Below, one piece after another: positions 5,261 to 40,792 of a stretch of DNA of 41,779 nt. The stretch is taken from contig JAHIRD010000138.1 of the NCBI GenBank assembly GCA_018818835.1, forward strand, positions 1-41,779. Reading direction: 5' to 3'. Source of the stretch: Pseudomonadota bacterium (lineage in GTDB: Bacteria > Desulfobacterota > Desulfobacteria > Desulfobacterales > Desulfolunaceae). The first letter of the stretch is position 1, and each line of letters begins with the position of its first letter. The notes below the pieces were generated by a model that was not told where the DNA came from, did not search any database, and saw nothing but the letters and a program-made list of their open reading frames with translations. The position numbers and the translations under genes are program-made.

Positions 5261-7960
5261 ATGAGCGAAAACCTGTTAGTCATCGATGGCCAGGAGGTTA
5301 TGTTCGAGCCTGGTCAGACGATTCTTGAGGCCGCGGAAAAGGTAGGTATCGATATCCCCACACTCTGCCATCTCAAGGGAACCACACCCACTGGCGCCTG
5401 CAGGATCTGCATGGTGGAGGTTGAGGGAGCCCGGACCCTGATGGCGGCCTGCACTGTCCCTGCGGCCAAGGGAATGGTGGTTCAAACCGAATCAGCCACT
5501 GTGGTCCGGTCACGTAAAACAACCATTGAACTGATGCTGGCATCGGGCAGACACGATGACTGCCTTGTCTGTCCGGCCTCCGGAGATTGCAGACTTCAGG
5601 AACTGGCCTATCGATACAAAGTCAAAAGTGCTCGTTTTCCTGAAACCTTCACAGAGTATCCCATGGAAACGGTCAATCCTTTGATCGTCCGGAACTTCGC
5701 AAAATGTATCCTCTGCGGCCGTTGTGTTCAAGCCTGCCGCGACGTCCAGGTCAACGATGCCATTGATTTCGGTTACCGGGGTGCTACGACCAAAATCGTC
5801 GCCAAGGGTGACATGGCCCTCAAAGATTCGGACTGCGTGTTCTGCGGCCAGTGCATCCAGGCCTGCCCCGTAGGCGCTCTTGTTCCCAAGGATGCCTGGA
5901 AAAAACCCAGGGTCTGTGAAACAGAGCAGATCCGGACCACCTGTCCCTATTGCGGTGTGGGATGCCAGCAGATTCTCCATGTAAAAAACAAGAAGATCGT
6001 CCAGATTTCCGCCGCAGAAAACGCTGAGCCCAACCAGGGACGACTCTGTGTCAAAGGTCGTTTTGGTTACGATTTTATCCATTCTGATGAACGACTCAAA
6101 ACACCGTTGATTAAAAAAGACGGGGTATTCCATGAAGCCACCTGGGATGAAGCCCTGGATCTGGTGGCCAGTAAATTCACCCAGATCATAAAGGATCACG
6201 GCCCTGACGCCGTTGCCGGCGTAAGCTGTGCCCGAAGCATCAATGAAGATTCCTATCAGATGCAGAAATTATTCAGGGGGGTGTTTAAAACCAATAACAT
6301 TGATCATTGCGCCCGCACCTGACATGCTCCCACTGTGGCCGGTCTGGCCACCACATTTGGTTCAGGAGCAATGACCAATTCATTTAAAGAGTTCAAACAC
6401 GCCAAGATGTTCTTTGTCATCGGTTCAAACATGACCGAGGCCCACCCGGTTGCTGCGACCTATGTCAAAAACGCAGTGCGAAGCGGGGCCAAGCTGATCG
6501 TGGTGGACCCGAGAAAACACAAGCTGGCAGAATTTGCCGATCTCCATGTCCCCATCAAGGTGGGGTCGGACATCGCCTTTCTCAATGCCCTCATGTATGT
6601 TCTGATCAAAGAAGATCTCTATGACAAGGACTTTGTCACGAATCACACGGAGAATTTCGAGGCCCTCAAAGAGGTGGTGATGGCTTATCCTCCGGAACGT
6701 GCATCCGATATCTGCGGTGTTTCGAGTGAAACCATTGTCGAAACGGCCCGCTTGGCCGCGTCCATCAAACCCATGATGCTCTGCTATACCCTGGGCATTA
6801 CCGAGCATTCCTGTGGACGCAACAACGTGGTCAGCGTGGCCAATCTCCAGATGCTCCTGGGCAACATGGGCATGGAAATGGGCGGCGTAAACCCCTTGAG
6901 AGGCCAGAACAATGTCCAGGGTGCCTGCGACATGGGGGCTCTGCCCAATGTATTCCCCGGATATCAACAGGTGGTGAACCCCGATGCACGCAAAAAGTTC
7001 GAAGAGGCCTGGGGCGTTGATAATCTTCCGGACAAAAACGGATTGATGATCCCCCAGATGATGGACAAACTGGTCACGGGTGAGGTCAAGGCATTCTATA
7101 TTTTCGGAGAAAATCTCGCCAACACCGAGCCGGACATCCGTAAAGTGGAACACGAGCTTTCAAGCGCCGAGTTTCTGGTCTGCCAGGATATTTTCGAAAA
7201 CGAGACCACCCGGTTCGCCCATGTGGTGTTACCTGCAGCGGCCTGGAGTGAAAATGACGGAACCTTCACCAACAGTGAACGCCGTGTAAGCCGTGTCCGG
7301 ACAGCCTGTCCTCCCCCGGGAATTGCCAAACCCAACTGGTGGATCTTCCGGGAAATTGCCAAACGCATGGGCCAGACTTGGCCCTCTCAAAGTGCCAAGG
7401 AATTGTGGGACAATGAAATTTCTGTCCTGGCACCCTCTTTGGGCGGCATCAAGTACAGAAGAATCGAACTAGACGGTCTTCAGTGGCCCTGTCCCACTGA
7501 AGAGCATCCCGGCACATCCTTTCTTCACAAGGGCGGTCAATTCACCTCGGGCAAGGGACATTTCACCCCGGCTGAATGGACCCCCCCGGCCGAGGTTCCC
7601 AATGCAGACTATCCCTATGTTCTAAGCACAGGTCGCCGTCTGTATCATTACCATACAAGGACACAGACCGGCCGGACGCCAGGTCTCAACGAACTCCTGG
7701 GTGAGGAAACCGCGGATATTTCCATCAGTGACGCCCGGAAATTGGGCATCTCCAACGGAGAAACCATCCGCCTGTCTTCACGGCGGGGGTCTATTTCCCT
7801 CAAGGCACGGGTAACCCAAGAAGTTCCGGAAAACATGGTCTGGATGGCTTTCCATTTCAGGGATGCCAATGCCAATTGGCTGACCAATCCAGCCTTTGAT
7901 CCCTATACGTTAACGGCAGAGTACAAAGCCTGTGCCGTCAAGATTGAAAAGATGGTTTAA
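5261..7960 (+). CDS. fdhA: Selenocysteine-containing formate dehydrogenase, NuoG-like N-terminus
   Basis: Oxidises formate to CO2, or reduces CO2 at the head of the methyl branch of the Wood-Ljungdahl pathway. It is 899 residues long if UGA 6320-6322 is read as Sec354, in the context CARTUHAPTVAGL, the FdhF-type active-site motif. Domains in order: a 2Fe-2S ferredoxin domain (Cys near 38-65, CHLKGTTPTGACRIC), a His/Cys NuoG-type cluster site (HDDCLVCPASGDC, about 97-110) and two 4Fe-4S sites (CILCGRCVQAC; CVFCGQCIQACPVGA). Next come a 4Fe-4S site in front of the molybdopterin domain (TCPYCGVGC), the Mo/W-bisPGD catalytic domain, and a C-terminal molydopterin dinucleotide-binding domain. No twin-arginine signal is present, so the enzyme is cytoplasmic. 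No diaphorase or electron-transfer subunit gene lies beside it, so the partner is encoded elsewhere. The start follows AAGGAG. The gene ends at a strong terminator. Confidence 0.95.
6335..6351 (+). promoter_or_regulatory. SECIS element of formate dehydrogenase
   Basis: Twelve bases after the UGA (6320-6322) lies a perfect 6-bp stem GTGGCC/GGCCAC closing the five-base loop GGTCT. Loop sequence and distance match the classic E. coli fdhF SECIS bound by SelB. This strongly supports Sec insertion over a frameshift or nonsense mutation. Confidence 0.9.
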
Positions 7961-8664: not shown

Positions 8665-10233
8665 ATGAATAAACCTGTCACCAATCCCATCTTGTTTGAA
8701 CGGTTGCTATTTGAAATATCTTCAAAATTTGTTAACCTTCCGGCATCTGATGTGGACAAGGAAATCAATGCGGCCATCCGAAAAATCGTGGAATTTCTTG
8801 GGATTGACCAGTGTGTTTTCGGAGAATTCCGGGATGACGGCAGCTCACTGAAGATCAGTCACGGGTATACAACCTGCACCTGGCCGGAAACAGACGGCAT
8901 TATCCTCAATGACATTGCCCCCAATACCATATTACGCTTGAAACGGGGGGAAGTGGTCAACCTGTCCCAGCTGCCCCAGGATATCCCGGAAGACTGGCAT
9001 GAAGAGCTGGCCTATGCAGCCAAAGTGGGTCTTAAATCCTGTGTGGGCGTCAGCCTGAACGTCGGCGGTTCGGTTCTTGGGGTGATTATCTTTGAGTCCT
9101 ACCGGAGCTATCAGAACTGGACCGATCAATCCATCCAGCACATGAGGTTGCTTGCCCAGATTTTTGCCAATGCCCTGGAACGTAAACAGACCGATCTAAA
9201 ACTTCGCAAGGCCTTTGACAGAATCCATGAATTATCCGAACATCTCAAAGAAGAGAACCGGTACTTGAGGGAGACCATCAGCAGCCAGAGCCGTTATGAA
9301 AATATTATCGGCCGTAGCCCGGCCATGGGGTTTGTGCTTGGAAAAATCGAACAGGTGGCCGAGACGGATTCGACGGTTCTTCTCCTTGGTGAGACCGGGA
9401 CGGGAAAAACCCTGATGGCCCAACTGGTTCACCAGCTAAGCCGCAGAAAAAACAAAACCATGATCAAAGTGAATTGTGCCACCCTGCCGGCCAATCTTCT
9501 GGAAAGCGAATTATTCGGCCATGAAAAAGGAGCCTTCACCGGTGCGGTAACCAAAAAAATCGGCCGTTTTGAAATTGCCAACGGATCGACCCTGTTTCTT
9601 GATGAAATTGGAGAACTCCCCCTGGATCTCCAGTCAAAACTCCTCCGTGTCCTTGATGACGGAGAATTCGAACGCCTGGGGAATGCCACCTCTGTCAAAG
9701 TGGATGTGAGGATCATTGCTGCCACAAACAGGAACCTGGACAAGATGATCAGTGACGGGACATTCCGGTCTGATCTGTTTTACCGGTTGAATGTTTACCC
9801 GGTCCGCGTTCCCCCGCTGCGTGAGAGGCTTGAAGACATACCGGATATGGTGTGGTCCTTTACAAAAGAGTTCTGTAAAACCATGGGCAGGGATGTCACA
9901 CATATTCCCCAAAAAAATCTTGACGCTGTGATGAATTACGCTTGGCCCGGTAATATTCGTGAGCTAAAAAATGTGGTTGAAAACGCCATGATTTCAAATC
10001 AGGGAAACACACTTTACCTGTTACCCCCTGAACGATCCCAGACCCAGGACCAGGATGATCTGAGCTTTGAACGTGCTGAGCGGGCTCATATTATAAGTGT
10101 CTTGAAAAAGACCGGCGGCAGAATCAAGGGTAAAGGCGGGGCTGCAGATGCATTGATGCTTAAACCCTCAACCCTCTATTCCAAAATGAAGAAGTTAGGC
10201 ATTGATTCAGGTGCAGGCCCCATGTTGCAGTAA
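8665..10233 (+). CDS. Sigma-54-dependent transcriptional activator, GAF-AAA+-Fis HTH
   Basis: A 522-residue enhancer-binding protein. A GAF sensor domain (about residues 25-175) is followed by a coiled linker (about 180-205) and the sigma-54 AAA+ domain (about 215-440). The Walker A motif is GETGTGKT near 243, the sigma-54-contacting GAFTGA loop is intact near 290, Walker B is LFLDEIGEL near 310, and R-finger sequences follow. The C-terminal Fis-type HTH (about 468-515) starts [15 protein letters not shown]. It has no receiver domain, so it responds to a small ligand through GAF, not to phosphorylation. Its natural target is the downstream dehydratase operon, which has a -24/-12 promoter and matching dyad sites. 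The start is supported by AGGAAAAGG upstream. Confidence 0.93.
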
Positions 10234-10255: not shown

Positions 10256-10293
10256 AGGTCGACATTTCGACCCTCAGGATGATATGTCGACCT
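10256..10293. promoter_or_regulatory. Inverted repeat with GGTCGA-N4-TCGACC dyad
   Basis: A perfect 10-bp inverted repeat AGGTCGACAT/ATGTCGACCT spans 10256-10293. Its left arm also forms the tighter dyad GGTCGA-CATT-TCGACC (10257-10272), which recurs with one mismatch at 10738-10753. It may be an activator-binding site, or simply a hairpin after the activator stop; a short T-run follows. Confidence 0.45.
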
Positions 10294-10724: not shown

Positions 10725-10753
10725 CATATCGTCCTACGGTCGACATATCGTCC
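10725..10753 (+). promoter_or_regulatory. Putative enhancer (UAS) for the sigma-54 activator
   Basis: Two copies of CATATCGTCC (10725-10734 and 10744-10753) are 19 bp apart, about two helical turns. The second lies in the near-perfect dyad GGTCGA-CATA-TCGTCC (10738-10753). The pair lies about 90-115 bp upstream of the -24 element, the usual distance for activators of this type. A related CATTTTCGACC occurs at 10667-10677. Confidence 0.5.
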
Positions 10754-10840: not shown

Positions 10841-10856
10841 TGGCACACTAATGGCT
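10841..10856 (+). promoter_or_regulatory. Sigma-54 (-24/-12) promoter of the dehydratase operon
   Basis: TGGCACACTAATGGCT matches the consensus TGGCAC-N5-TTGCW, with GG and GC dinucleotides at exactly the required spacing and one substitution in the -12 half. It lies about 155 bp upstream of the chosen dehydratase start and downstream of the activator gene, so a leader of about 140 bases is expected. Confidence 0.75.
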
Positions 10857-11009
10857 AATATACCCTGGCAACTGGATGCTTGTGCCGGTTTTTCAGCAGA
10901 TTCTGCTGGACATCCCCATATGGCACAGGTGAGAAGCCTCCGGATCTGACATCAAACCATGTCCATCCGGTCAACTTACAATTCAACATCGTTAGATGAG
11001 GATGTCATT

Positions 11010-12476
11010 ATGCGAACCAAACAACAATATCGTGAAAATCTTTTGAAACTCAAACGCAACATTTACTTCAAGGGTGAAAAAATCGGACGCGACCATGAGG
11101 TGCTCCAACAGTCCATCAATGTTCTTGGCCATACCTTTGATGCAGCCATGGACCCTGCAACAAAGGATCTGTGTACAGCAAAATCCCATCTGAGCGGTGA
11201 GACCATCAACCGGTTCTGCCATATTCATCAATCCACCGATGACCTTCACAAAAAACAGGACATGACACGTACCTTGTGCCGGCACGTTGGATATTGCATA
11301 GGCCGATGCATGGGTGTGGATTCCATCAATGCCGTTAACTCCGTATCATTTGAAGCAGACAAAATGAACGGCGGTAATACCGAATACCATAAAAATTTTC
11401 TAAAATGGCTGGACAACTTCCAGAAAAACGATCTGATCGGAACCTGTGCCCAGACCGATGTCAAAGGAGAGCGGATGCTCAGGCCGTCCCAGCAGACAGA
11501 CCCGGATCAGTATCTGCATGTCGTTGAAAAGCGCAGTGACGGGATCGTTGTCAAGGGATGTAAAGTTCATATCACCCAGGCATCGATTGCCGATGAAATC
11601 ATGGTTTTGCCCACCCGGTCCCTTGGGCCTGACGAAACCGAATATGCGGTGGCCTTTGCCGTTCCTGCGGATTATGACGGGGTGACCCAGGTGATTCATC
11701 CCCACAACATGCGTAAACGTGAGCACTATAAGCGCGGATTCGATTTTGGAGCGGTGGATTCCTATGTGATTTTCGATAATGTTTTCGTGCCTTGGGACCG
11801 CGTGTTTCTGTGCGGTGAATACCAGCACGGTGGACTTTGTGCCCTTTTGTTCGCACTGTTTCACAGACATAGTTATTCAGGCTGCAAACCTGCCATCGGT
11901 GATGTCACCCTGGGTATGGCTGCCTTGGCTGCAGAGGTTAACGGCATTGAAAAATCATCCCATGTCAGGGAAAAACTGGCAAGTATCATCCAGATTTCTG
12001 AACTGGGCTATGCCGCCGGATTCACAGCATCCGAATTGGGAAAACCTGAAGTATATATTCCAGGAATGGGCCAAGTCCCCTACGGTCCAGGCTCATACAT
12101 CCCCAATTCCCTCTACTGTAATGTGGGCCGATGCCTGACCGGGGAAGCGGTTTTCCACGAGCAGGAAATCCTCTGTGATATTGCAGGTGGCATTCCCGCA
12201 ACCTTTCCCTTTGAACAGGACCTGATGAATAAAGATCTCAAACCCATCATGGAAAAATATTTGAAACGGAATGCCAAGATGCCCATTGAAGATCAGATCA
12301 AATTCTGGATGTATCTGAGTGACATGACCGTATCCGATTTGGCCGGTGGAATGAATTACGGCGGCTATCATGGCGGCGGCTCACCCATCATGGAGCAGAT
12401 TGCCATTACGTCACAATACGATATCCGCTTACGGAAAGAGCTGGTGAAAAAGCTGGCAGGCATGTCAACAAAATAG
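11010..12476 (+). CDS. 4-hydroxybutyryl-CoA dehydratase-like Fe-S flavoprotein (AbfD family)
   Basis: The family eliminates water from 4-hydroxybutyryl-CoA through a ketyl-radical mechanism using FAD and one 4Fe-4S cluster. From ATG 11010 the protein is 488 residues, close to the 490 of clostridial AbfD, and MRTKQQYRENLLKL aligns with the AbfD N-terminus. An upstream ATG (10959) would add 17 unmatched residues. All four cluster ligands are present: Cys96 and Cys100 (CIGRC), and His285 and Cys292 (HRHSYSGC). By my recall of the family, the active-site Tyr in SYSGC and the Glu in CGEYQ are kept. The Gln between the first cysteines is Gly here, and the catalytic Glu before HGxGSP appears as Gly (YGGYHGGGSP). 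A different hydroxyacyl-CoA substrate is therefore possible. First gene of the sigma-54-controlled operon. Confidence 0.85.
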   Translation: MRTKQQYRENLLKLKRNIYFKGEKIGRDHEVLQQSINVLGHTFDAAMDPATKDLCTAKSHLSGETINRFCHIHQSTDDLHKKQDMTRTLCRHVGYCIGRCMGVDSINAVNSVSFEADKMNGGNTEYHKNFLKWLDNFQKNDLIGTCAQTDVKGERMLRPSQQTDPDQYLHVVEKRSDGIVVKGCKVHITQASIADEIMVLPTRSLGPDETEYAVAFAVPADYDGVTQVIHPHNMRKREHYKRGFDFGAVDSYVIFDNVFVPWDRVFLCGEYQHGGLCALLFALFHRHSYSGCKPAIGDVTLGMAALAAEVNGIEKSSHVREKLASIIQISELGYAAGFTASELGKPEVYIPGMGQVPYGPGSYIPNSLYCNVGRCLTGEAVFHEQEILCDIAGGIPATFPFEQDLMNKDLKPIMEKYLKRNAKMPIEDQIKFWMYLSDMTVSDLAGGMNYGGYHGGGSPIMEQIAITSQYDIRLRKELVKKLAGMSTK

Positions 12477-12580: not shown

Positions 12581-12751
12581 ATGAGTGAGAAAAAAATTGT
12601 TTCACCCCCGAAAAAACCCCATGAAATAGCCATGGAAAACGAAACAAACGATGATATCCAACGGGTTCTGTTGGAACAGCAGAGCCGGATTATCAATGAA
12701 GTAAACTCAAATATCAACGCTGAAAACGGCAGGAGTAATGATGAGAATTGA
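12581..12751 (+). CDS. Small charged orphan protein in the dehydratase operon (56 aa)
   Basis: ATG 12581 follows AAAGAGAGGTGACATC, an acceptable ribosome-binding site. It opens a 56-residue frame beginning MSEKKIVSPPKKPHEIAMEN and ending NAENGRSNDEN, which overlaps the next gene start by 14 bp. The protein is very hydrophilic, with no Cys, no signal and no membrane segment. A central amphipathic stretch (DDIQRVLLEQQSRIINEVNS) may form one helix. No family recognised. Position and overlap suggest a translationally coupled accessory or adaptor of the dehydratase or dehydrogenase. It could be non-coding, but the codon pattern resembles its neighbours. Confidence 0.6.
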   Translation: MSEKKIVSPPKKPHEIAMENETNDDIQRVLLEQQSRIINEVNSNINAENGRSNDEN

Positions 12752-13649
12752 ATCCATCAAAAAAATACTGATTCTGGGCGCAGGGACCATGGGCCAGCAG
12801 ATCGGCTTTGTCTGCGCCCTCCACGGGTATGATGTCGTGATCTACGACATCTCGGAAACCATGCTTGCAACCGCTGAAAAATATATCCGGAAAAGCACCG
12901 GAACCATGGGACTATACGGGGCCTTCACTCCCCAGGAATATGAGTCGGCTGTCAAACGGATACAATACACAAGCAATCCAAAGGAAGCGGCGGATGGGGT
13001 GGATCTTGTCAACGAATCCGTTCCCGAAGATCCGGGATTGAAAGGACAGATTTTCAGCCAGTTCAATGCGCTCTGTCCTCCGGATACCATTTTCACCACA
13101 AACACCTCCTCCCTTGTCCCCTCGATGTTTGCCCAGGCCACCGGGCGACCGGACAAGTTCTGTGCTCTCCATTTCCATGTTGTGAATATGACCAAAATTG
13201 TCGATGTCATGCCCCATCCCGGAACATCGTCCGAGACCCTTGAAACCGTCATCGAATTTGCAAAACGCATCGGGCAGATTCCCATTGCCCTGAGCAGCGA
13301 GCACTATGGCTATGTGTACAACCACATGCTGATGTCCCTTCTGGATTCGGCCCTGTCCATCGCATCCCGTGGGGTTGCAACGGTAGAAGATATTGACCGG
13401 TCTTGGATGGGGGTGATGAATACGGCCATTGGACCCTTCGGCATCATGGACAGCATCGGATTGATGACCTCGTACAAAATCACCGATTTCTGGGCCAATG
13501 TGAAAAAAGATAAAAAAGCCATGGCAAACGCAGCGTTTATCAAACAATACGTGGATCAGGGAAAGCTTGGGATCAAAACCGGTGAAGGATTTTATTCATA
13601 CCCGAACCCGTCCTATGCACATCCGGCCTTTATCAGCAGCAATGTGTGA
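12738..13649 (+). CDS. 3-hydroxyacyl-CoA dehydrogenase-like NAD-binding protein
   Basis: Probably oxidises a 3-hydroxyacyl-CoA (or related beta-hydroxy acid) with NAD+. The 303-residue protein has an N-terminal Rossmann motif ILGAGTMGQQIG (residues 10-21), the NTSSL active-site strand (about 120) and a His in LHFHVVN where family members have HFFNP. The C-terminal helical domain includes GPFGIMDSIGL and the closing G-x-G-FYSYP segment. The altered HFHVVN/VDVMPH block places it in a divergent branch, nearer gulonate/carnitine-dehydrogenase-like relatives than FadB, so the substrate is uncertain. Starts ATG 12738 or 12741 behind AGGAG. It lies in the AbfD-like operon, consistent with a hydroxyacyl-CoA to ketoacyl-CoA route. 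Confidence 0.85.
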   Translation: MMRIESIKKILILGAGTMGQQIGFVCALHGYDVVIYDISETMLATAEKYIRKSTGTMGLYGAFTPQEYESAVKRIQYTSNPKEAADGVDLVNESVPEDPGLKGQIFSQFNALCPPDTIFTTNTSSLVPSMFAQATGRPDKFCALHFHVVNMTKIVDVMPHPGTSSETLETVIEFAKRIGQIPIALSSEHYGYVYNHMLMSLLDSALSIASRGVATVEDIDRSWMGVMNTAIGPFGIMDSIGLMTSYKITDFWANVKKDKKAMANAAFIKQYVDQGKLGIKTGEGFYSYPNPSYAHPAFISSNV

Positions 13650-13701: not shown

Positions 13702-14457
13702 ATGGTGACATTTTCACTAAAAAATAAAATTGCCCTGATCACCGGCGCCAGCCGGGGAATCGGAGAGGATATTGCCCAGACACTTGCATCACAAGGGGCA
13801 CACTGCATTCTTGTCAGCAGAAAAATAGATGATCTTGAACGCGTTGTTTCGCTTATCAAGGACCAGGGCGGCTCAGCTACGGCCATGGCATGCAACATGG
13901 GGGACCTGGCACAAATTCAATCCCTGATGCAGCAGGTGGAAAAGGAACACGGCCGTCTGGATATTCTTGTGAACAATGCAGCGGCCAATCCCTATTTCGG
14001 AATGATGATCAATGCCGAGGAATGGGCATGGGACAAAACCCATCAGGTCAACCTCAAAGGGCCCTTTTTTATGACCCAGCTTGGAGCAAGGCTCATGAAA
14101 GACACCGGCGGATCCATTGTCAATGTCTCATCGGTGAACGGCGTCAGGCCGGCCATGATGCAGGGAATTTATTCCATTACCAAAGCAGCCCTGATTTCCA
14201 TGACAAAAGCCTTTGCAAAGGAGCTCGCACCCTACAATATACGGGTGAACGCCCTGCTCCCAGGCATGACCGAAACCAAATTTTCAAGTGCGATCACCGA
14301 GAATAAAGAGGTTGAAAAAGCGGTTATTGCCCAAATTCCATTAAAGCGGATTGCCAAGCCCTCTGAAATGTCAGGGGCTGTGCTTTACCTGGTATCCGAT
14401 GCCTCATCCTACACCACAGGCAGTTGTATCACCTGTGACGGCGGTATGCTGGCATAG
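13702..14457 (+). CDS. SDR-family oxidoreductase (3-ketoacyl reductase/hydroxyacid dehydrogenase-like)
   Basis: A 251-residue classical short-chain dehydrogenase. The cofactor motif is TGASRGIG (residues 14-21), NNAA lies near 93, and the catalytic Ser is in NVSSVNG near 140. The YxxxK pair is in YSITKAAL near 155-159, and a C-terminal TGSCITCDGGM motif closes the fold. An Arg/Lys pair at the end of beta-2 (VSRKID) suggests NADP(H) preference. It is the last gene of the sigma-54 operon, 52 bp after the preceding gene and with its own AGGAGG. It probably interconverts an alcohol or semialdehyde with a ketone or hydroxyacyl intermediate of the same pathway; the substrate cannot be read from sequence. 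Confidence 0.88.
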   Translation: MVTFSLKNKIALITGASRGIGEDIAQTLASQGAHCILVSRKIDDLERVVSLIKDQGGSATAMACNMGDLAQIQSLMQQVEKEHGRLDILVNNAAANPYFGMMINAEEWAWDKTHQVNLKGPFFMTQLGARLMKDTGGSIVNVSSVNGVRPAMMQGIYSITKAALISMTKAFAKELAPYNIRVNALLPGMTETKFSSAITENKEVEKAVIAQIPLKRIAKPSEMSGAVLYLVSDASSYTTGSCITCDGGMLA

Positions 14458-31989: not shown

Positions 31990-32883
31990 TCAGGAGGGAT
32001 GTCTTCCATCACCTTGGAAAACCTCGCGAATATGCCAGGATACAAATTGAGGTTCCGGGAAAAAAGATGGCCTTTGTGGTTGGATCAGTTTTTTACCATG
32101 ATAAGCCATGAGCCATTCTTCAAAGCCTCCTGTTCCATGAGCCCGATCAGAGACAATAATTTTCATGTTATCCGACAATGTGAAAGCCCCGCGATCGAAA
32201 AGCTTGTGATGCAAGGCACAGAGTGCAACACCATTTTCTTCAATGTCAGGGCCACCGGCCTGGTGCCATTTAATATGAGCGGCTTCAAGTGCCACCAATG
32301 AATTGCCGACACGGACATTAAAACCGCAAACCGCACATCGATACTCATAGGCATTTAAAATTCTATCCCTGAAATTGGGGTCACGATTTCGTTTTATGTT
32401 TTCAGTAAACTCAAGATCAAGGCCAACGGCTTGCAGAATATCTTCGTGGATGGACGCCGGAAAATTGTTTTCTAAAATGGATGATACGATTTCAGGGATC
32501 TGGTCTTTGTTGCATACAAGAAAATCGTAGATCTGTTTTTTAAAACCGCCTTGAACATTATATTTGATCAGTTCACCTTTTTTTGCATCGGAATTACATC
32601 TCCGCGACGTAACAAGTTCTGTGTTCGTTAATTCCCAAATGCCATCATTCTGCAGCCGCCAGAATGGATACTCGGGATGGTAGCGTTTCCGTGTCGGGCC
32701 GAATTCGATCAAAATCTGTTTCAGTTGGTTTTCAATATCTGAAAAACTGATAAGCCTTCCCTTTTCCTGGATACAATGTGCCAAGGCAATTAAAATCAAT
32801 AGCGGCTTGTGCGGTGCTCGTTGTCCGCCTCTTTTCCACATTGTAATATGATCGAACAGGTTTTTTACTGTTTTTGTGTCCAT
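31990..32883 (-). CDS. SBD-HNH endonuclease, phosphorothioated-DNA-binding type IV restriction enzyme-like
   Basis: A 297-residue two-domain nuclease. The N-terminal 150 residues match the sulfur-binding domain of the ScoMcrA family, which recognises phosphorothioate linkages in Dnd-modified DNA: MWKRGGQRAPHKPLLILIAL, FGPTRKR and HPEYPFWRLQNDGIWEL. The C-terminal HNH has a zinc knuckle CAVC (about 183), EAAHIKWHQAGGPDIEENGV, and CALHHKLFDRG supplying the metal-binding His/Asn/His. It would cut DNA carrying foreign phosphorothioate marks. No dnd/dpt genes are in view. It is the last gene in the same-strand defence block, 69 bp after the large partner gene, with only a weak SD. Confidence 0.85.
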   Translation of the reverse strand: MDTKTVKNLFDHITMWKRGGQRAPHKPLLILIALAHCIQEKGRLISFSDIENQLKQILIEFGPTRKRYHPEYPFWRLQNDGIWELTNTELVTSRRCNSDAKKGELIKYNVQGGFKKQIYDFLVCNKDQIPEIVSSILENNFPASIHEDILQAVGLDLEFTENIKRNRDPNFRDRILNAYEYRCAVCGFNVRVGNSLVALEAAHIKWHQAGGPDIEENGVALCALHHKLFDRGAFTLSDNMKIIVSDRAHGTGGFEEWLMAYHGKKLIQPQRPSFFPEPQFVSWHIREVFQGDGRHPS

Positions 32884-32952
32884 AATTTTCTAAAACTTTA
32901 TTGTAATTCTGGTTTCATGAAAGATCTTCTTTCTCCCCTTGGTTTCACCTCA

Positions 32953-35781
32953 TCACACCCCTGTTAATTCATTATAAAGTTGCTCTATACCTTTTAACTG
33001 CCTAACACTATTCGAAAACTCTATCACTTCTGTTCTAAGTCCGGTACCTGCCAATTTGGTCAACAACCCCCTCAATCGATCTTCATAGTCATAAGTTGGT
33101 TTATAATTGTTTAGAACTTCTCGTAAAATTCTACAGACTTCTTTTGGGGACATTGTTGCCAAACGATCAAGCTCTTCTATAAAGATATCGGCATTATGAT
33201 TTATACTCACATATGGGGCCACTGCCACCATTAGTTTTAAGGAATTTTTGTCTATTTCATGTAAAACGCAAGATAATTTACTGAGCGATGAATATAATTT
33301 TGTAGGTTGACTGGATAAGGCTTCGCCCCATTCAACACACCATTTCCAAAAATTCACTATAAGCTCAATTTGTTTTTCGGATAGACCTTTTTTATGCACT
33401 TTCTTAAAAAAACTGCAGATGTTTATAAGATCATTAATTTTATCTTCAGCCAATAAAAGGGTAAACCTTGATGAGTCAAGTGTCTCATCGCCCCAAAGAT
33501 AAGCAAGAGCGACTCTGTCAAGAATTCTCTCACGGACCTGTTCATTATTTAGTTCAATACTCAATGCCTTGTCTATGATCTCATTTGAAACCAAAAGTTG
33601 ATATAAGTCTTTGGCCGCCGATGCATAAGTCAGACCCGCAATTGCACATCTGAAGTTTTCATTCAAATCAAATGGAAAGATTTGCGTTATTCTCGAATAC
33701 AACCAATCTTTGCTAAGATAATTTAAATTGGGAAGGTAACACCCAGAAAGAGTTGAAAAATCATGGTTGGCCCCTGTAATGCACTTCTCAATCTCTTTAT
33801 TAAATACATGTACAATATCCGCCCAAGTATCTTCGTGTTTCCCTATTTTTTTGTCTGCAACACGACATGCCCTTAGTGCATGGATAAAAAGTGCTTCAAG
33901 GGACTTTCCTCTTGATGAATTAATAGCATGCAACATTGGGTCTCGATCGACCGCATCTTCGATTTCCAAGTTATCCAACAGAAGGATTATGAGATCCAAT
34001 GTTCTTGGCAACAAATCAGGGGAATAGGCTTTTTCGTCTTTCAGAGTTCCCGATTTAAGCAACTCTGCTATTAGAGGTGGTATCCAGTCCCGTGTCGGAG
34101 TTAAATCATGCTGCTCATTGACTTTCTCGCTCCAAAAAGTTTGATCACCAAGTAGGCTTTCAAAAAAATCGATTAACTTTACCCAAGCCGAATCCCAATC
34201 AATCGTAACTTTATCGTAATCACTACCGTTCCAAAGGTTCTTAAATCCATTTATAATACCATACTGATAAGCTCTTTTAGCCTCCCTGAATTGAGGGAGT
34301 ATCCCTAAAATAGTATCCGGCTGACTTGTAACAACATTTTCAAGAGTCGTTACAAGTGCTTTAATATTCGGACCACGCCATAAATCCGTCTGTTCAAAAG
34401 CATTCAGTTTTTCAACTATAGTTCCATTTTCAGAAAAGGTGAGTAACTCATCAAGCTCATAGGGAGAGGGCCCTGGTCCCCATCCTGTTTCCATATAGAA
34501 ATTAAAATCGGGGTGGTCAGATAATTTTCCCATCTCTTTATCTTGATTTAGCTCGTCAAACAAATCATCAACAGGCTTATATCCTTGGTTATTGACAGCC
34601 GAAAGCCAATTCTGCATCAAATAACGTCGATATTGCTCAGGATTTTCGCCAACATTCTTTAAGGGTAACTCACAAATCGCCTTGAGAGTCGCCTGTTTAT
34701 AATTATCATTGAAAATGATAAAACGTCTTTTCAATAATTGATACAACTCATGTAGATTCTTCGAATCAAACAAGTCTGGTCCTACGAGGTCTCCGTAAAG
34801 GCAATTTAATTCAGTCCATCGTTCATTCAATAGAAAAATTCCGATACGATTAATCATATCATTTTTATTTTTGAGCATATCCTTGATAAATTCACGAGAG
34901 CCCGCAGGATCAGCCGAAACCCAAGAAACAAGGATCTCCCTGAGTCCCATAACCAAACAGTTTTCTGTTTCATGCCATTTACGATTTTGCTCGTGCTCTT
35001 CAACCGCTGGACGTATCATATAACTGGGCATAGCTCTTTCTTCTCTTTTAAACGCCTCTTTAATCCGTTCAACAAACATAAATGAAGCAATTTCACCAAT
35101 TTTATGCCCTAACTTTTCCGCATGCTTTTCAATTATTTTATTAAGGAAATAACCGTCCACTACTGTTACAAGCTCACTATCTCGTCGTTTCGTTGGAACG
35201 TCTTCCCCACATTTTAACTCAGTACAATAATTCAATATGGTGCAAGCCATCTCCAAGTCTCCACGAGATTCACTCTCCAAAAATCGACTGATTACGCCTT
35301 TACTAAGAGCAGTACCAACAAGACTTCTATCAAATTTCCCATTAAGCCACACTGGTATCATTGGCAAATCTTCTTTTAAAAACACTTCACGCGGTATGAG
35401 TCCAATAATTTCAGCAAAAATTCGATAGGTATGGTAGTTGTCTTGAGCCTCGCCACTTTCATCACGAAATCGACTTACCTCCCTAACAACATTCATTACT
35501 TTTTCCGCAAGTTCTAAATCGTTTCGTTCCCCTGAGATCTGAGCCAAATGTTTGAGATAATCCAAAGGCGCCCAATACGGGATACGTACATAGCCAGGCT
35601 CATCAGCTGGAGTGGGGCCAGGGGCTTTTTTGGGTTCAAAAAAACCATCTGCTTTTAGTGAATCAAAAAAAACTTCCGGGTCAGGCTTGGTAATTAACAA
35701 CTGAAATCCTCGTTGTGCATGTTCATCGCTCTTTTCCATTAAAACTATGAATGACTTTTGATTCGCCGTTAAATTATTCAT
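32953..35781 (-). CDS. Large helical protein coupled to SIR2 (possible DUF4020-type defence partner)
   Basis: A 942-residue soluble protein without signal peptide or membrane helices. It is almost wholly alpha-helical and Trp/Leu-rich (DIVHVFNKEIEKCI, FWKWCVEWGEAL, LYQLLKRRF), reminiscent of helical-repeat scaffolds. I cannot assign a catalytic motif. SIR2-type proteins are sometimes paired with a DUF4020 protein; I suspect that relation without proof. Its ATG overlaps the SIR2 stop by 4 bp (ATGA), so the two products are made together and probably form a complex. A sensor or regulator of the SIR2 NADase is the most natural role. The DNA is visibly more AT-rich than the housekeeping genes, a sign of transfer. 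Confidence 0.7.
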   Translation of the reverse strand: MNNLTANQKSFIVLMEKSDEHAQRGFQLLITKPDPEVFFDSLKADGFFEPKKAPGPTPADEPGYVRIPYWAPLDYLKHLAQISGERNDLELAEKVMNVVREVSRFRDESGEAQDNYHTYRIFAEIIGLIPREVFLKEDLPMIPVWLNGKFDRSLVGTALSKGVISRFLESESRGDLEMACTILNYCTELKCGEDVPTKRRDSELVTVVDGYFLNKIIEKHAEKLGHKIGEIASFMFVERIKEAFKREERAMPSYMIRPAVEEHEQNRKWHETENCLVMGLREILVSWVSADPAGSREFIKDMLKNKNDMINRIGIFLLNERWTELNCLYGDLVGPDLFDSKNLHELYQLLKRRFIIFNDNYKQATLKAICELPLKNVGENPEQYRRYLMQNWLSAVNNQGYKPVDDLFDELNQDKEMGKLSDHPDFNFYMETGWGPGPSPYELDELLTFSENGTIVEKLNAFEQTDLWRGPNIKALVTTLENVVTSQPDTILGILPQFREAKRAYQYGIINGFKNLWNGSDYDKVTIDWDSAWVKLIDFFESLLGDQTFWSEKVNEQHDLTPTRDWIPPLIAELLKSGTLKDEKAYSPDLLPRTLDLIILLLDNLEIEDAVDRDPMLHAINSSRGKSLEALFIHALRACRVADKKIGKHEDTWADIVHVFNKEIEKCITGANHDFSTLSGCYLPNLNYLSKDWLYSRITQIFPFDLNENFRCAIAGLTYASAAKDLYQLLVSNEIIDKALSIELNNEQVRERILDRVALAYLWGDETLDSSRFTLLLAEDKINDLINICSFFKKVHKKGLSEKQIELIVNFWKWCVEWGEALSSQPTKLYSSLSKLSCVLHEIDKNSLKLMVAVAPYVSINHNADIFIEELDRLATMSPKEVCRILREVLNNYKPTYDYEDRLRGLLTKLAGTGLRTEVIEFSNSVRQLKGIEQLYNELTGV

Positions 35782-36776
35782 TTTAACAATTTCTCCATAT
35801 CACCAAATTCTTGAAGTGGTATTACGTCCTTGGCAGGAGCTTTTTGTGCCAATTCTTCCATTACATCTAAGAGTTGGTCCCAGTCTTTTTGATCCCGAAG
35901 AAAAGGTATTAACTGAATCCCACACTCTTGGAGGTAGTATCGCTTTAGGCTGACCATGAGCTCTTGTTCGTGGGAAAAAAAACCTTGCAACAAATAGTGT
36001 TTAGCCTCTTTCGTGGTGAATCCTGGCTTATGCCTTGCTTTCAGTATGACATATTCAAGAATTTCCAATTCTTCCAGACCGTAACCAATGAAAAGCACCG
36101 TTTTACGATCAAACAGATATTCCAAAAAGGTCAGAACTCGATTCTCTACACCTTGCCCAATCGAAAACCGGTCATTTGCATAATGTTGCACATAATCTTG
36201 TGTAGTAAGAACCATACCATCTGGGTCAAGCAAAGAACCATGCAAATGAATCACTAAGTTATTTTTATGCAGTGTATCCGCAGTAAAATCACTAACTCGA
36301 TGAATAGCTTTTCTTTTTTGAACAAATATAATTTTACTGTGGTCTGGTTCAATCCCGGGTGAAAGCTCTTGTGTCTTCAGTTCCTCATCCAACCATTCAT
36401 CATAATTGGTTGTGACAAAGGTTTTACCCAAGGCTGACAAACTCCCAAAAAGCCGTAGACCTTTAGGATTTTTCTTGTGGCCTTCAGGATGTATTAATTT
36501 TTTAAAGTCGATGGGTATTTGATGTTCCTCTTGTAAACCTTTGGCAATAGCAAGCTTGACCCTTGGGCTGAGATGGCTTATTTGAGCAAGCTGTCCATGA
36601 GAAAATTTGCCTTTTTCAACAAAAAATCGAAGCGCCGCATCAGCAAAACCATTCCAGTCTGGGCATCCTGCAAGGCGGGAAGCGCCTGCCCCAACAAATG
36701 GTATCAGAGTTCCTCTTATTGCTGCTTCACGTAAACCTTCTGGAATCCGCGGTATGGGAAGAATTTCATCGTTCAT
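35778..36776 (-). CDS. SIR2-like NAD-hydrolase domain protein (defence effector)
   Basis: A 332-residue protein with the SIR2 fold: LIPFVGAGASRLAGCPDWNG (NAD-binding GAGAS near 29-33), TTNYDEWLD near 122 (catalytic Asn/Asp region), NLVIHLHGSL near 172 (active-site His), and VLFIGYGLEELEIL. In Thoeris, DSR and SIR2-HerA systems such domains deplete NAD+ and abort phage infection, so an effector role is inferred. The start follows AGGAG. It lies 160 bp downstream of the helicase gene on the same strand, so it may have its own promoter. It is coupled to the 942-residue gene by a 4-bp overlap. Confidence 0.87.
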   Translation of the reverse strand: MNDEILPIPRIPEGLREAAIRGTLIPFVGAGASRLAGCPDWNGFADAALRFFVEKGKFSHGQLAQISHLSPRVKLAIAKGLQEEHQIPIDFKKLIHPEGHKKNPKGLRLFGSLSALGKTFVTTNYDEWLDEELKTQELSPGIEPDHSKIIFVQKRKAIHRVSDFTADTLHKNNLVIHLHGSLLDPDGMVLTTQDYVQHYANDRFSIGQGVENRVLTFLEYLFDRKTVLFIGYGLEELEILEYVILKARHKPGFTTKEAKHYLLQGFFSHEQELMVSLKRYYLQECGIQLIPFLRDQKDWDQLLDVMEELAQKAPAKDVIPLQEFGDMEKLLK

Positions 36777-36936
36777 CTAAACCGACTCCTAATTTTTCTT
36801 TATTTTTAAGCCGTTTAAGTTTTTTTGATCTCATTCTTGTTTATTGATAGTTATCAAATAACGCAAAGACCTGATTCATATGACTATCTCTCTTCGATTA
36901 GAGAATTAGCTGTATCACAATACTATTCAAAAATTT

Positions 36937-39900
36937 CTACCCCCCCCGCCGATTCTCTTCAAACATCTCCACAGGCATGGGATAGTGAAGTCGCCACATG
37001 ATCTTGATCGGCCGTTCACTTTCATGGCTCACATGGTCGACCGGTCCCAAATACACGAAGGGAACGGTGCAGTTGTTGCGCCTCTTTTGGTCGCGGGCAA
37101 AAACGAGAATTGTATAACCACGGGACTGGTGATCGATCAGATTCTGGCCTGTGGGGGATTCTTGCGTTGTGTTTGATTGGGATTCCCAGTGAAGCAATTC
37201 CCTGCTCACAGGATAATCGGCATACATGGTGCTTGGGGAAAATTCTTTTTCGGTCTTTTGATATGTAATCAGCAGAGCGTAAGCCTTGATCTCTTTAAAG
37301 TGCATAACACCGACACCACTCTGCCCCGGAGAAGATAACGTGGCACGATCGAAAGCTGCCTGAATATCTTTGATGCCATAGTAGGCATGCAGTTCGAGGG
37401 CGCAAGGGAACGGCAGTTCTGCAAAGGCACCACTGACCTGCGATGCTGAATCTGCCCATTCAAGGATTTCATCCATGTCCCGGAGGATGGTTTGATTTTG
37501 GCACAAACGATCAAATGAATCGTAAAGGTTATTAAACCCCAACTTTGATGCCGGTTCGCCCCAAAAGCGATAATACACGCTGTTTTGCTGGTGTTGAATC
37601 AGCGACATGGCACCCTCTACATCATTATTTTCAAGCAAACCGATCACCTGCCGCATCCGCGTGATTTCATGGGGGCCTGAAATAAAAGCGGCACGCACCA
37701 AGGTTTTTTTCAAAGCATTGAAATCCGGATCAACCGGAGTTGGGGCAAGTTGTGCTTTGGCCTTCCAACCGGTCCAGCTTTCCGCCACCAACAGCCGCTC
37801 AGGCTCGTAATCATGATAGTGAATAAAATTTGCGAAGGTGAGATCTTGTCCTGTATCCGACCTAAAGGTCTGGAGGCGTTCCGGAATCTGGACGGCAAGG
37901 TTTTTAAGATTTGTTCGAATATTCTCAAGAACATACTGCCGGGATATGCGGTCAAACTGGATGGAACAACCCGCCGGAAGATGAGGGAAATTGTGTTCCA
38001 CTTCGCGGTCAATGGCATAACGGTGCTTGGGCAGCAAGGATTTTAGCTTAATATCAAGGCGGTAACGCCGGTGTGCCTGCCCTACAAAGTCAAGGACGGT
38101 CAGGCAATCTTTACCAGGGGCGTGTCGCAAACCCCGGCCCAGCTGCTGGAGAAAGACGGTCAGACTTTGTGTGGGGCGAAGAAACAGGACCGTGTTGATA
38201 TCCGGCACATCCACCCCTTCACTGAGTTTATCGACCGTAAACAGAAAAATGAATGTTCCGGTCCTCAATCCTTCAAGCATGGATTCACAGGCTGAGCTCT
38301 CAAGCCTGGACACAAAGGCTGCCGAAGAAATACCCCGTTTGTTGAACATATCAGCCATGAATTGTGCGTGCTTGATCGACACACAAAAACCGATGCCTTT
38401 GACGTTTTCAAGATTTGGTTCGTAAAGAAACAGAGTCGAATAGATGACATCAAGACGCTGTTTTGCCAGGATGTGTTCTCCCGTGTATATTTTTTCAAGT
38501 GCCTTTTCGTCATATTTGCCGTTTCTCCAAAAACGGTCACTGCTGATGTCAATGGGATCGGCAACGCCAAAATAGTGAAAAGGACAAAGCAATTTCTCTT
38601 CCAGGGCCTCAGGAAGTCTGATTTCAGCAGCAAAACGGTTTCCGAAATCCGCGGCCACATTGCCGCCATCCATCCGTTCCGGTGTTGCCGTCAACCCGAG
38701 CAAGATTTCAGGGTTAAAATGATCATAAATCGGACGATAGCTGGCTGCGGTTCCGTGATGGGCCTCATCAACGACAATAAAATCGTAAAAGTTAGAACCC
38801 ACGTGTTCCCATAAACGCCGACTGGCAAGCATTCCCACCGAACAAAAGAGATGCTCCATGCGTTCGGCCTGATAAGACCCCACCAGCAATTCGCCAAAGT
38901 TAGAGTCTCGTAAAACATTCCTGAACGTCATTAAGGCTTGTTGAAGAATCTCCTTCCGATGAGCGATGAACAGCAACTTGGCGTTCTTTTTCTTTTCGAG
39001 AAAAAAGCGATGATAGTCGAAAGCCGAGATCACTGTCTTTCCTGTTCCTGTAGCGGCGATAACCAGATTCCGGTAATGATTGCGGGTTGTTCGTTCACGG
39101 GCCAGGGCTTCAAGAATCCGCTCCTGGAAAGGATGGGGGCACAGATCGAAAAAGAAGTCTGTCTTTAAGTCGCTGGACTTCCGGGCCTGTTCAATCGCCC
39201 GACGAAGTGTTGCGGGATTGCCGGGATCATAGGGTATAAATTCGCGACTGTTCCAATAGGTCTCAAACTCAGCCGTAAACTTATCAAGGACATGATCCAT
39301 ATCAACGCTGGTGATTTTGAGATTCCATTCCAAACCACTTGTCATTGCGGCATGAGACATGTTGGCGGACCCGATATAGGCGGTTGAAAAACCGGAAAGC
39401 CGTTTGAAATGGTACGCTTTTGCATGAAGTCTGGTCCGATTGGTATCGTAGGAAATCCTGACCCGCACATTGGTCATGGCGGCCAGCCATTCAACGGCCG
39501 GGGCGTCCGATGCCCCCATGTATGATGTAGTAATAAGCCTAACCGGTACATCGCGCTCACGCATATCCTCAAACGCTGGCATCAACAGCCGTAAACCGGA
39601 CCACTTGATAAACGACACCAGGATATCCACGGAATCTGCCGATCGCATTTCCTCCATCAATTCATGGACGAGTTGCGGCTCCATGGGTGATCCGGTAAAA
39701 AGGCTGCTTTCCACAACGGATGTCTGAGGCCGGGGAATGCCTGGCCGACCATAATTGGGTGGGGTAATCTCCAGAAGTAACGTCTTTCGACCTGATACCA
39801 ATTTACGGTTTTCAAGATATTCCATTCCCTCTGTTCCCGACATCAATTCGATGATTCGGTTGCACAAGGACAAGCGTTTCTCAGGGTCATCGATTACTCG

Positions 39901-40068
39901 CAAGGCCTGTTCAAGAAATTTGGAAACAAAACTGGCGTAACGGGCCGGTTGTTCTTCATGATCAATTTTATCGAGGACTATTCGCAGTTCAGGATTGGAG
40001 GCTAAAAGCTCTTGTAACGAGCAATCGACAAGAGCATCATACAGGCCGGGATAAAGTTGATTCGGCAT
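36937..40068 (-). CDS. PLD nuclease-DEAD/DEAH helicase-DUF3427 fusion
   Basis: A 1043-residue multidomain enzyme. After a helical N-terminus, a phospholipase-D/HKD-type nuclease domain (about 135-270) contains RTRLHAKAYHF and AYIGSANMS, a single HxK...GSxN half-site implying dimerisation. The superfamily-2 helicase follows: Walker A IAATGTGKTVIS near 339, VVDEAHHGTAA near 432, LTATPERMDG, and motif VI FLQQLGRGLRH. The C-terminal third (about 700-1043) is of the DUF3427 type, with FANFIHYHDYEPERLL and HFKEIKAYALLITY. Such proteins occur in defence islands and are thought to process DNA. It begins 5 bp after the Nudix gene, so the two form an operon. All nuclease and helicase motifs look intact. 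Confidence 0.9.
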   Translation of the reverse strand: MPNQLYPGLYDALVDCSLQELLASNPELRIVLDKIDHEEQPARYASFVSKFLEQALRVIDDPEKRLSLCNRIIELMSGTEGMEYLENRKLVSGRKTLLLEITPPNYGRPGIPRPQTSVVESSLFTGSPMEPQLVHELMEEMRSADSVDILVSFIKWSGLRLLMPAFEDMRERDVPVRLITTSYMGASDAPAVEWLAAMTNVRVRISYDTNRTRLHAKAYHFKRLSGFSTAYIGSANMSHAAMTSGLEWNLKITSVDMDHVLDKFTAEFETYWNSREFIPYDPGNPATLRRAIEQARKSSDLKTDFFFDLCPHPFQERILEALARERTTRNHYRNLVIAATGTGKTVISAFDYHRFFLEKKKNAKLLFIAHRKEILQQALMTFRNVLRDSNFGELLVGSYQAERMEHLFCSVGMLASRRLWEHVGSNFYDFIVVDEAHHGTAASYRPIYDHFNPEILLGLTATPERMDGGNVAADFGNRFAAEIRLPEALEEKLLCPFHYFGVADPIDISSDRFWRNGKYDEKALEKIYTGEHILAKQRLDVIYSTLFLYEPNLENVKGIGFCVSIKHAQFMADMFNKRGISSAAFVSRLESSACESMLEGLRTGTFIFLFTVDKLSEGVDVPDINTVLFLRPTQSLTVFLQQLGRGLRHAPGKDCLTVLDFVGQAHRRYRLDIKLKSLLPKHRYAIDREVEHNFPHLPAGCSIQFDRISRQYVLENIRTNLKNLAVQIPERLQTFRSDTGQDLTFANFIHYHDYEPERLLVAESWTGWKAKAQLAPTPVDPDFNALKKTLVRAAFISGPHEITRMRQVIGLLENNDVEGAMSLIQHQQNSVYYRFWGEPASKLGFNNLYDSFDRLCQNQTILRDMDEILEWADSASQVSGAFAELPFPCALELHAYYGIKDIQAAFDRATLSSPGQSGVGVMHFKEIKAYALLITYQKTEKEFSPSTMYADYPVSRELLHWESQSNTTQESPTGQNLIDHQSRGYTILVFARDQKRRNNCTVPFVYLGPVDHVSHESERPIKIMWRLHYPMPVEMFEENRRGG

Positions 40069-40073
40069 GGTTC

Positions 40074-40475
40074 TTATTCACCCATAATCTGACAATAGGT
40101 TGCAAGCACCGGCAAATCAGCCTCAGCCCAGTCAAGCGTGTCAAGTTCTTCAGATGGCAGCCACGCCACAGCCTCATGTTCATGGAGCTTTATTTCACCG
40201 TCAAAAATAGAACAAATAAATGGATGCAGTGTCACCGTAATTGTTGGATAGGTGTATGTGGAAGGAGGTAAGGCTTTGAGTATTTTTATGGTGACGTCGA
40301 GTTCTTCAAGGATTTCACGCCGAATTCCGTCTTCAGGGCTCTCACCTTCTCTAATTTTTCCGCCTGGGAATTCCCACTTCAACGGCAAACTCATGGCTGT
40401 GCTTCGTTGAGCAGCAAGAACAAGCCCGTTTCGTTCGATGATTGCGCAAGAAACACTAATATGCTCGTTTGCCAT
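40074..40475 (-). CDS. Nudix (MutT-like) nucleoside triphosphate pyrophosphohydrolase
   Basis: A 133-residue MutT-type Nudix enzyme from MANEHISVSCAIIERNG; ATG 40484 is an alternative start three residues earlier. The Nudix box is present as GGKIREGESPEDGIRREILE, then ELDV, with the RExxEE metal ligands intact. PLKWEFPGG is typical of 8-oxo-dGTP or (d)NTP pyrophosphohydrolases. In this position, five bases before the PLD-helicase gene, it may clean nucleotides for the defence system, hydrolyse a signalling nucleotide, or be a housekeeping gene caught in the operon. Confidence 0.85.
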   Translation of the reverse strand: MANEHISVSCAIIERNGLVLAAQRSTAMSLPLKWEFPGGKIREGESPEDGIRREILEELDVTIKILKALPPSTYTYPTITVTLHPFICSIFDGEIKLHEHEAVAWLPSEELDTLDWAEADLPVLATYCQIMGE

Positions 40476-40792
40476 TATTACCATCACACCCTGTACAATG
40501 TCATTGTTATAAAATTTAAAGATATATTGAAGCGGGATTCATGGAATTAACAACTAAAGGCCCCACACCATTTTGCCGTCCTTCATTACTCATTCGTATG
40601 AATGGTATTGAAGTAGCTAATGTCTGTCAATACCTTTTCAATGAAGCTTGTGAATCAAAAATGTGAAGGGTTTGGGCACAATCACAAACATTAATTTTAA
40701 ATTTTGATAGATTGAGTCTCGCTTTCCCATTACAAATCAGACATATTGTCACTACTTGTCATTATAGAGAAACGTTTTGTCTGGAAATAACT
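40476..40792. promoter_or_regulatory. Promoter region of the defence operon with inverted repeat
   Basis: A 317-bp AT-rich region between the divergent Nudix gene and AbiEi remnant. GGTATTGA (40604-40611) pairs with TCAATACC (40627-40634), and CATTC/GAATG flank 40591-40603. They could be operator sites for regulation of the Nudix-helicase operon. No clear -35/-10 pair stands out. Confidence 0.4.

Follow-up and report, generated by a model that had tools for sequence, protein, structure and literature searches.

The closest described systems are the 4-hydroxybutyryl-CoA dehydratases, among them AbfD of Clostridium aminobutyricum (1U8V) and the enzyme of Nitrosopumilus maritimus (6VJR). To our knowledge, AbfD is the only characterized kind of enzyme that performs a radical dehydration with a tyrosine, FAD and a [4Fe-4S] cluster; it also isomerizes vinylacetyl-CoA. 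The roles of Tyr296, Glu455, Glu257 and Thr190 in AbfD were reportedly worked out by Zhang et al. in 2015: Glu455 is thought to take the tyrosine proton, and Glu455 and Glu257 variants are said to be inactive. 4-Hydroxybutyryl-CoA dehydratase is used to recognize carbon-fixation cycles that run through 4-hydroxybutyrate. For the reaction of AbfD, one article (PMC13101534), which uses the enzyme as an analogy only, gives a proposal in which an internal one-electron transfer yields a flavin semiquinone and dehydration proceeds via an allylic ketyl radical.

The window protein and its active site

The window, by which we mean the whole stretch of 41,779 nt that was analyzed, contains a gene whose product is, judged by its sequence, homologous to 4-hydroxybutyryl-CoA dehydratase but a member of a separate, uncharacterized branch (Table 1). 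The open reading frame spans positions 10959–12476 (505 aa) with the first ATG at 10959; translation more likely begins at 11010, because the homologous ATG of the nearest relative (locus L037, at 8001) sits in the same place. Residues 18–502 of the 505-aa frame align to 1U8V with an E-value of about 1e-101, and PF11794 (307.8 bits) and PF03241 (180.9 bits) both pass their Pfam cut-offs. The AF2 model of the protein (pLDDT 90.6) has its best fold matches in 6VJR (Z 48.5 over 472 residues) and 1U8V (Z 47.8 over 473 residues); the HGGGS loop is of low confidence in this model and in a canonical control model, too. Flavin monooxygenases of the HpaB type (2YYG and others) have the same fold and the same two Pfam families, but they show only 25–26% identity and lack the aligned cysteine ligands. 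The score of the window protein against TIGR02309 (4-hydroxyphenylacetate 3-monooxygenase HpaB) was 156.1, with a cut-off of 480.2.

The window protein is 38–40% identical to AbfD, whose fold it is predicted to share over the full length. As a preliminary description of this DNA had claimed, the four cluster ligands are present: Cys96, Cys100, His285 and Cys292 align to Cys99, Cys103, His292 and Cys299 of AbfD, and they align to the ligand residues of 6VJR as well. Tyr289, Lys293 and Thr189, the counterparts of Tyr296, Lys300 and Thr190, are likewise retained. The same description had pointed out that the glutamine between the cysteines and the glutamate in front of HGxGSP both appear as glycine, and this is borne out by the alignment, in which Gln101 is replaced by Gly98 and Glu455 by Gly451; the motifs read CIGRC and YGGYHGGGSP in the window protein, in contrast to the canonical CFQRC and TESMHGAGSP in 6VJR. 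A check for shifted positions found no Gln or Glu in columns 101 or 455 of the window protein. A new glutamate, Glu462, lies 11 residues beyond the lost Glu455; its column (AbfD position 466) holds Glu in 117/117 rows of the branch versus Gln in 31/31 canonical rows. Further replacements had been overlooked: Glu257 is Asp250, Met149 is Gln148, His196 is Asp195, Gln294 is His287, Ala460 is Gly456 and Gln466 is the aforementioned Glu462.

Table 1. Coordinates of the dehydratase gene, its neighbors and candidate regulatory sites in the window
Feature	Position	Strand	Remarks
Sigma-54-dependent activator	8665..10233	+	522 aa; GAF, AAA+, Fis-type HTH
Candidate activator site GGTCGACATTTCGACC	10257..10272		inverted repeat
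Weaker candidate activator site	10277..10292		2 mismatches
Candidate activator site	10738..10753		1 mismatch
Candidate sigma-54 promoter TGGCACACTAATGGCT	10841..10856	+	GG-N10-GC retained; 1 mismatch to TGGCACN5TTGCW
AbfD-like enzyme, non-canonical branch	11010..12476	+	488 aa
3-Hydroxyacyl-CoA dehydrogenase	12738..13649	+	303 aa; NF006143 above cut-off
Short-chain dehydrogenase	13702..14457	+	251 aa; NF005446/PRK07035 above cut-off; best solved structure DHRS4, 3o4r

Conservation and distribution of the branch

From whole-genome and genome-contig searches we aligned 153 rows, of which 117 belong to the branch (more similar to the window protein than to AbfD), 31 are canonical and five fit neither group. 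The 117 rows include near-identical records (108 at a 99.5% cut); four short HSPs from a broken copy (L004/L027) were left out of an earlier alignment, and the counts omit three duplicates of the window gene. Selection by Gln149, His294 and Gly460 returns the same 117 rows as overall similarity, so that conservation at the other positions is not built into the definition of the branch.

All 117 branch rows retain Cys99, Cys103, His292, Cys299, Tyr296 and Lys300 (AbfD numbering, used from here on). Equally invariant are Gln149, which replaces Met149, His294, Arg370, Glu380, Gly460 and Glu466, and Gly147 has become Cys in 113/117. On the scheme proposed for AbfD, the FAD-side relay is kept, with a hydroxyl at position 190 (Ser 94, Thr 23; Thr in the window protein) and an ionizable group at position 257 (Asp 111, Glu 4, His 2), and position 196 is also acidic (Asp 114, Glu 3). 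The acid on the tyrosine side is gone: position 455 is Gly in 97 rows, Ala in 18, Ser in one and Asp in one, i.e. non-acid in 116/117. Position 101, however, is still Gln in 103 rows (Gly 12, Leu 1, Arg 1), and the 12 Gly rows fall within or close to the part of the tree that holds the window protein. The two losses named in the preliminary description hence are both real but differ in kind, that of Glu455 being branch-wide and that of Gln101 limited to 14 of the 117 rows, the window protein among them. Its picture of an active site deprived of two residues also has to be amended, as the site is not merely emptied but re-equipped with other conserved polar residues (Gln149, Asp/Glu196, His294, Arg370, Glu380 and Glu466).

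The 31 canonical rows carry Met/Leu149, His196, Glu257, Lys370, Glu455, Ala460 and Gln466, with Gln101 in 31/31; they were picked by positions 149, 296, 455 and 460, so that Glu455 was partly selected for. One canonical row has Phe at the ligand position 299. After thinning to <80% identity the same pattern was found in 44 branch and 21 canonical rows: the invariant residues hold in 44/44 branch rows, and position 455 is Gly in 28, Ala in 14, Ser in one and Asp in one. In a tree of 69 rows (44 of the 117 branch rows, 23 canonical and two outgroup rows; L026, L031 and L033 were left out), calculated with ten active-site columns removed and columns 370, 380 and 466 kept, the branch groups on one side with an SH-aLRT value of 100 and the window protein lies outside the canonical clade. 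Residues 149, 294, 455, 460 and 466 separate both groups among the rows examined. A search of the literature, covering titles and the openings of abstracts, yielded no description of this branch. A large natural branch that has the ligands and the tyrosine but not the glutamate presumed to deprotonate it offers a ready-made test of the AbfD mechanism.

Among the best 80 of at least 568 relatives, the branch was found, as judged by record titles, in deltaproteobacterial groups, Bacillota (many of them Desulfosporosinus), Dehalococcoidia, one spirochaete bin and one Lokiarchaeota bin. By an identity criterion at least 47 of the 297 genomes of the phylum carry it, and its genes resemble 4-hydroxybutyryl-CoA dehydratase by similarity, which is a warning for annotation. 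Branch and canonical genes lie close together at some loci (L043, L060, L105 and L125); at L125 (6913–15033) four AbfD-type genes, two of each kind, are found on one strand within ∼8 kb, with one TetR and one ECH gene between them. At least five branch copies are present in genome G266, four rows at 63–66% identity and one at 48%, and such numbers suggest varied substrates. The window's own genome contains two intact canonical copies, the window gene and a second, decayed activator-plus-dehydratase locus (L145, 5251–7724, on contig C99 of G000), in which the dehydratase is without ∼72 codons including the cysteine pair.

Gene neighborhood and candidate reactions

In the window, the activator gene is followed by candidate sites, the dehydratase, the 3-hydroxyacyl-CoA dehydrogenase and the short-chain dehydrogenase (SDR), and L037 has the identical order. 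Across 83 neighborhoods, the commonest partner clusters, whose names come from one or two representatives apiece, were AMP ligase (23), HADH (22), activator, SDR and FadE (18 each), ECH (17), thiolase (16), TetR and DUF362 (14 each); 9/83 have ferredoxin-like and weakly Hdr-like genes. Near-complete beta-oxidation operons with FadE, HADH, FadB and thiolase enclose the branch gene at the deltaproteobacterial loci L041 and L049 and at the Desulfosporosinus loci L085, L089 and L091, which are close kin within each group. The TetR representative is similar to FadR of Bacillus, although its 94.8 bits fall short of the cut-off (200), and the acyl-CoA dehydrogenase representative is like FadE5-type enzymes; other representatives are long-chain-type AMP ligases, MaoC pairs and a carboxyltransferase similar to that of propionyl-CoA carboxylase. 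At L101, L113 and L125 the branch gene's run includes a BaiCD/FadH-like flavoenzyme (below cut-off), a type to which 2,4-dienoyl-CoA reductases belong. At many loci the same gene run has no other gene, or no beta-oxidation gene, partly because contigs are short.

As a control we compared proteins encoded near branch genes (118, the preset maximum, from 34 of the 35 loci selected) with those encoded near canonical genes (70, from 20 of the 22 loci), the 25 commonest families being listed on each side. CoA-transferase (7/70) and Fe-ADH (2/70) were found on the canonical side and neither is among the 25 commonest branch-side families, each of which has at least four proteins; both are also absent among the 20 window ORFs scanned. 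Conversely, TetR (10/118) and HADH (8/118) were found on the branch side and are missing among the 25 commonest canonical-side families. Acyl-CoA dehydrogenase (7/118 versus 2/70) and ECH (6/118 versus 2/70) differ as well, whereas AMP-binding proteins (8/118 versus 6/70), SDR (9/118 versus 5/70), thiolase (4/118 versus 4/70) and sigma-54 activators (4/118 versus 3/70) do not separate the two sides. We therefore no longer regard acyl-CoA ligase or SDR as typical of the branch, both being just as frequent around canonical genes. From these counts, the context favors a role in beta-oxidation more than it opposes an overlap with canonical genes. The preliminary description had hinted at an uncharacterized radical dehydratase acting on another substrate: the separate branch and the gene context, which is partly unlike that of 4-hydroxybutyryl-CoA dehydratase, make another substrate likely, and the chemistry may still be a radical dehydration.

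Our preferred reading, offered tentatively and as falling somewhat short of probable, is that the window enzyme is an FAD- and [4Fe-4S]-dependent hydro-lyase with a re-plumbed proton relay that handles a larger acyl-CoA during anaerobic beta-oxidation. The enzyme would bind FAD and a [4Fe-4S] cluster held by three cysteines and one histidine. Upon binding of the CoA thioester, the conserved tyrosine would give one electron to FAD, with the Thr/Ser at position 190 and the acidic residue at 257 assisting, and the hydroxyl group would depart via a ketyl-type radical with a cluster iron acting as Lewis acid. Given how widely the branch occurs and how strict its conservation is elsewhere, another invariant residue may have taken over from Glu455 as acceptor of the tyrosine proton; Glu466, His294 or Glu380 would be candidates. 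With the side chains at positions 455 and 460 trimmed, and in the window protein that at 101 as well, the pocket may accommodate something bulkier than 4-hydroxybutyryl-CoA. Taken with the beta-oxidation neighbors, this suggests a larger hydroxyacyl-CoA, most likely medium- or long-chain or branched. The product could enter beta-oxidation via the co-encoded 3-hydroxyacyl-CoA dehydrogenase and SDR, and the adjacent sigma-54 activator probably turns the operon on. In more general terms, the branch enzyme probably either takes water from a molecule larger than the known substrate of the family or rearranges it. A more far-reaching version, which we regard as rather unlikely, is that strict anaerobes beta-oxidize long-chain or branched hydroxy fatty acids with the help of radical hydroxyacyl-CoA dehydratases that form a widespread family of their own, apart from 4-hydroxybutyryl-CoA dehydratase, with a Tyr/FAD/[4Fe-4S] site that has its tyrosine proton acceptor moved to a new invariant residue.

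As AbfD variants at Glu455 and Glu257 are reportedly inactive, the enzyme may have adopted another chemistry instead of a re-plumbed version of the old one. The main rival is enoyl-CoA isomerization: the enzyme could be a Δ3,Δ2-enoyl-CoA isomerase for unsaturated fatty acids, the dehydratase half of the AbfD chemistry having been lost along with Glu455. The near-complete beta-oxidation operons, the FadR-like regulators, the BaiCD/FadH-like flavoenzymes in the same gene run and the non-acid position 455 would all fit such a role. However, the four ligands and Tyr296 are invariant, which goes beyond the need of a plain isomerase, crotonase-family ECH genes able to isomerize are already present in 17/83 neighborhoods, and the at least five branch copies in genomes such as G266 point to varied substrates; we consider this reading unlikely. 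It is improbable, too, that the acyl-CoA dehydrogenase-like fold uses the cluster for some other reaction of acyl-CoAs, such as an alpha,beta-reduction or oxidation or the loss of another leaving group. The fold is common to HpaB hydroxylases and acyl-CoA dehydrogenases, and the changes at positions 149 and 147 lie in the loop that, by analogy with acyl-CoA dehydrogenases, contacts the flavin; the ferredoxin-like and weakly Hdr-like genes would also agree with it. Yet the ligands, tyrosine and lysine common to AbfD are all invariant, and the window gene adjoins no electron-transfer gene. We also find it improbable that the enzyme is an unchanged 4-hydroxybutyryl-CoA dehydratase whose acid has simply shifted from position 455 to 466, although Glu466 in all branch rows, the retained groups at 190 and 257 and the equal frequency of AMP ligase and SDR near canonical genes can be read that way: two canonical copies, both intact, are already present in the genome, CoA-transferase and Fe-ADH are missing from the scanned window ORFs, and several branch loci lie within beta-oxidation operons. 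Finally, a decayed or misassembled gene and a chance or misread base are ruled out, because the active-site pattern is common to 117 rows from several phyla.

Oleate hydratase (PF06100) was also considered as a co-occurring partner; such co-occurrence would be predicted if a 4-hydroxyacyl-CoA were usually derived from 10-hydroxystearate. It is found in 8 of the 297 genomes, and the association is unconvincing as only three of these eight are branch carriers, two of them of one genus (one-sided Fisher p 0.12). The window's genome has an oleate hydratase gene (G000 contig C278:67895-68923) that is broken by the contig end.

Candidate promoter elements and other features of the window

A study of sigma-54 regulons (PMC12316311) describes COG2368, which includes 4-hydroxybutyryl-CoA dehydratase, as sigma-54 regulated mainly in Clostridia. 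The candidate activator sites of the window (Table 1) were found with a pattern derived from the first of them itself, and at least three matches in the window were obtained in 11/100 shuffles, which makes them moderate evidence. L037 has a similar site of the GGTCGA type, GGTCGAAATATCGTCC, 3′ of its activator gene. The sigma-54 consensus occurs at chance level across the whole window (25 matches versus 23.7 expected), and the candidate promoter therefore rests on its position and on its conservation in L037, where the counterpart is TGGCACATTTCTGGCT. A promoter-like site with at most two mismatches was found at 12/12 loci with an activator upstream (11/12 if the window's 10841 site is not counted), most of them close Desulfosporosinus kin, versus 12/67 other loci, which were searched 5′ of the AbfD-like gene and not of the operon's first gene; we take this enrichment as supportive only.

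Further upstream, at 5261–7960 (+), the alpha subunit of a formate dehydrogenase is encoded in two frames with an in-frame TGA at 6320–6322 (ART-TGA-HAPTVAGLATT), which is probably a selenocysteine codon. An Rfam scan of the window at the gathering threshold gave no matches. A defense cluster on the minus strand (31990–40487) comprises an HNH nuclease, a DSR1-like system, a type IV restriction-like helicase and PDC-S07; the DSR1-like system is split into a SIR2 frame (35778–36776) and a 942-aa frame (32953–35781) that overlap by four bases.
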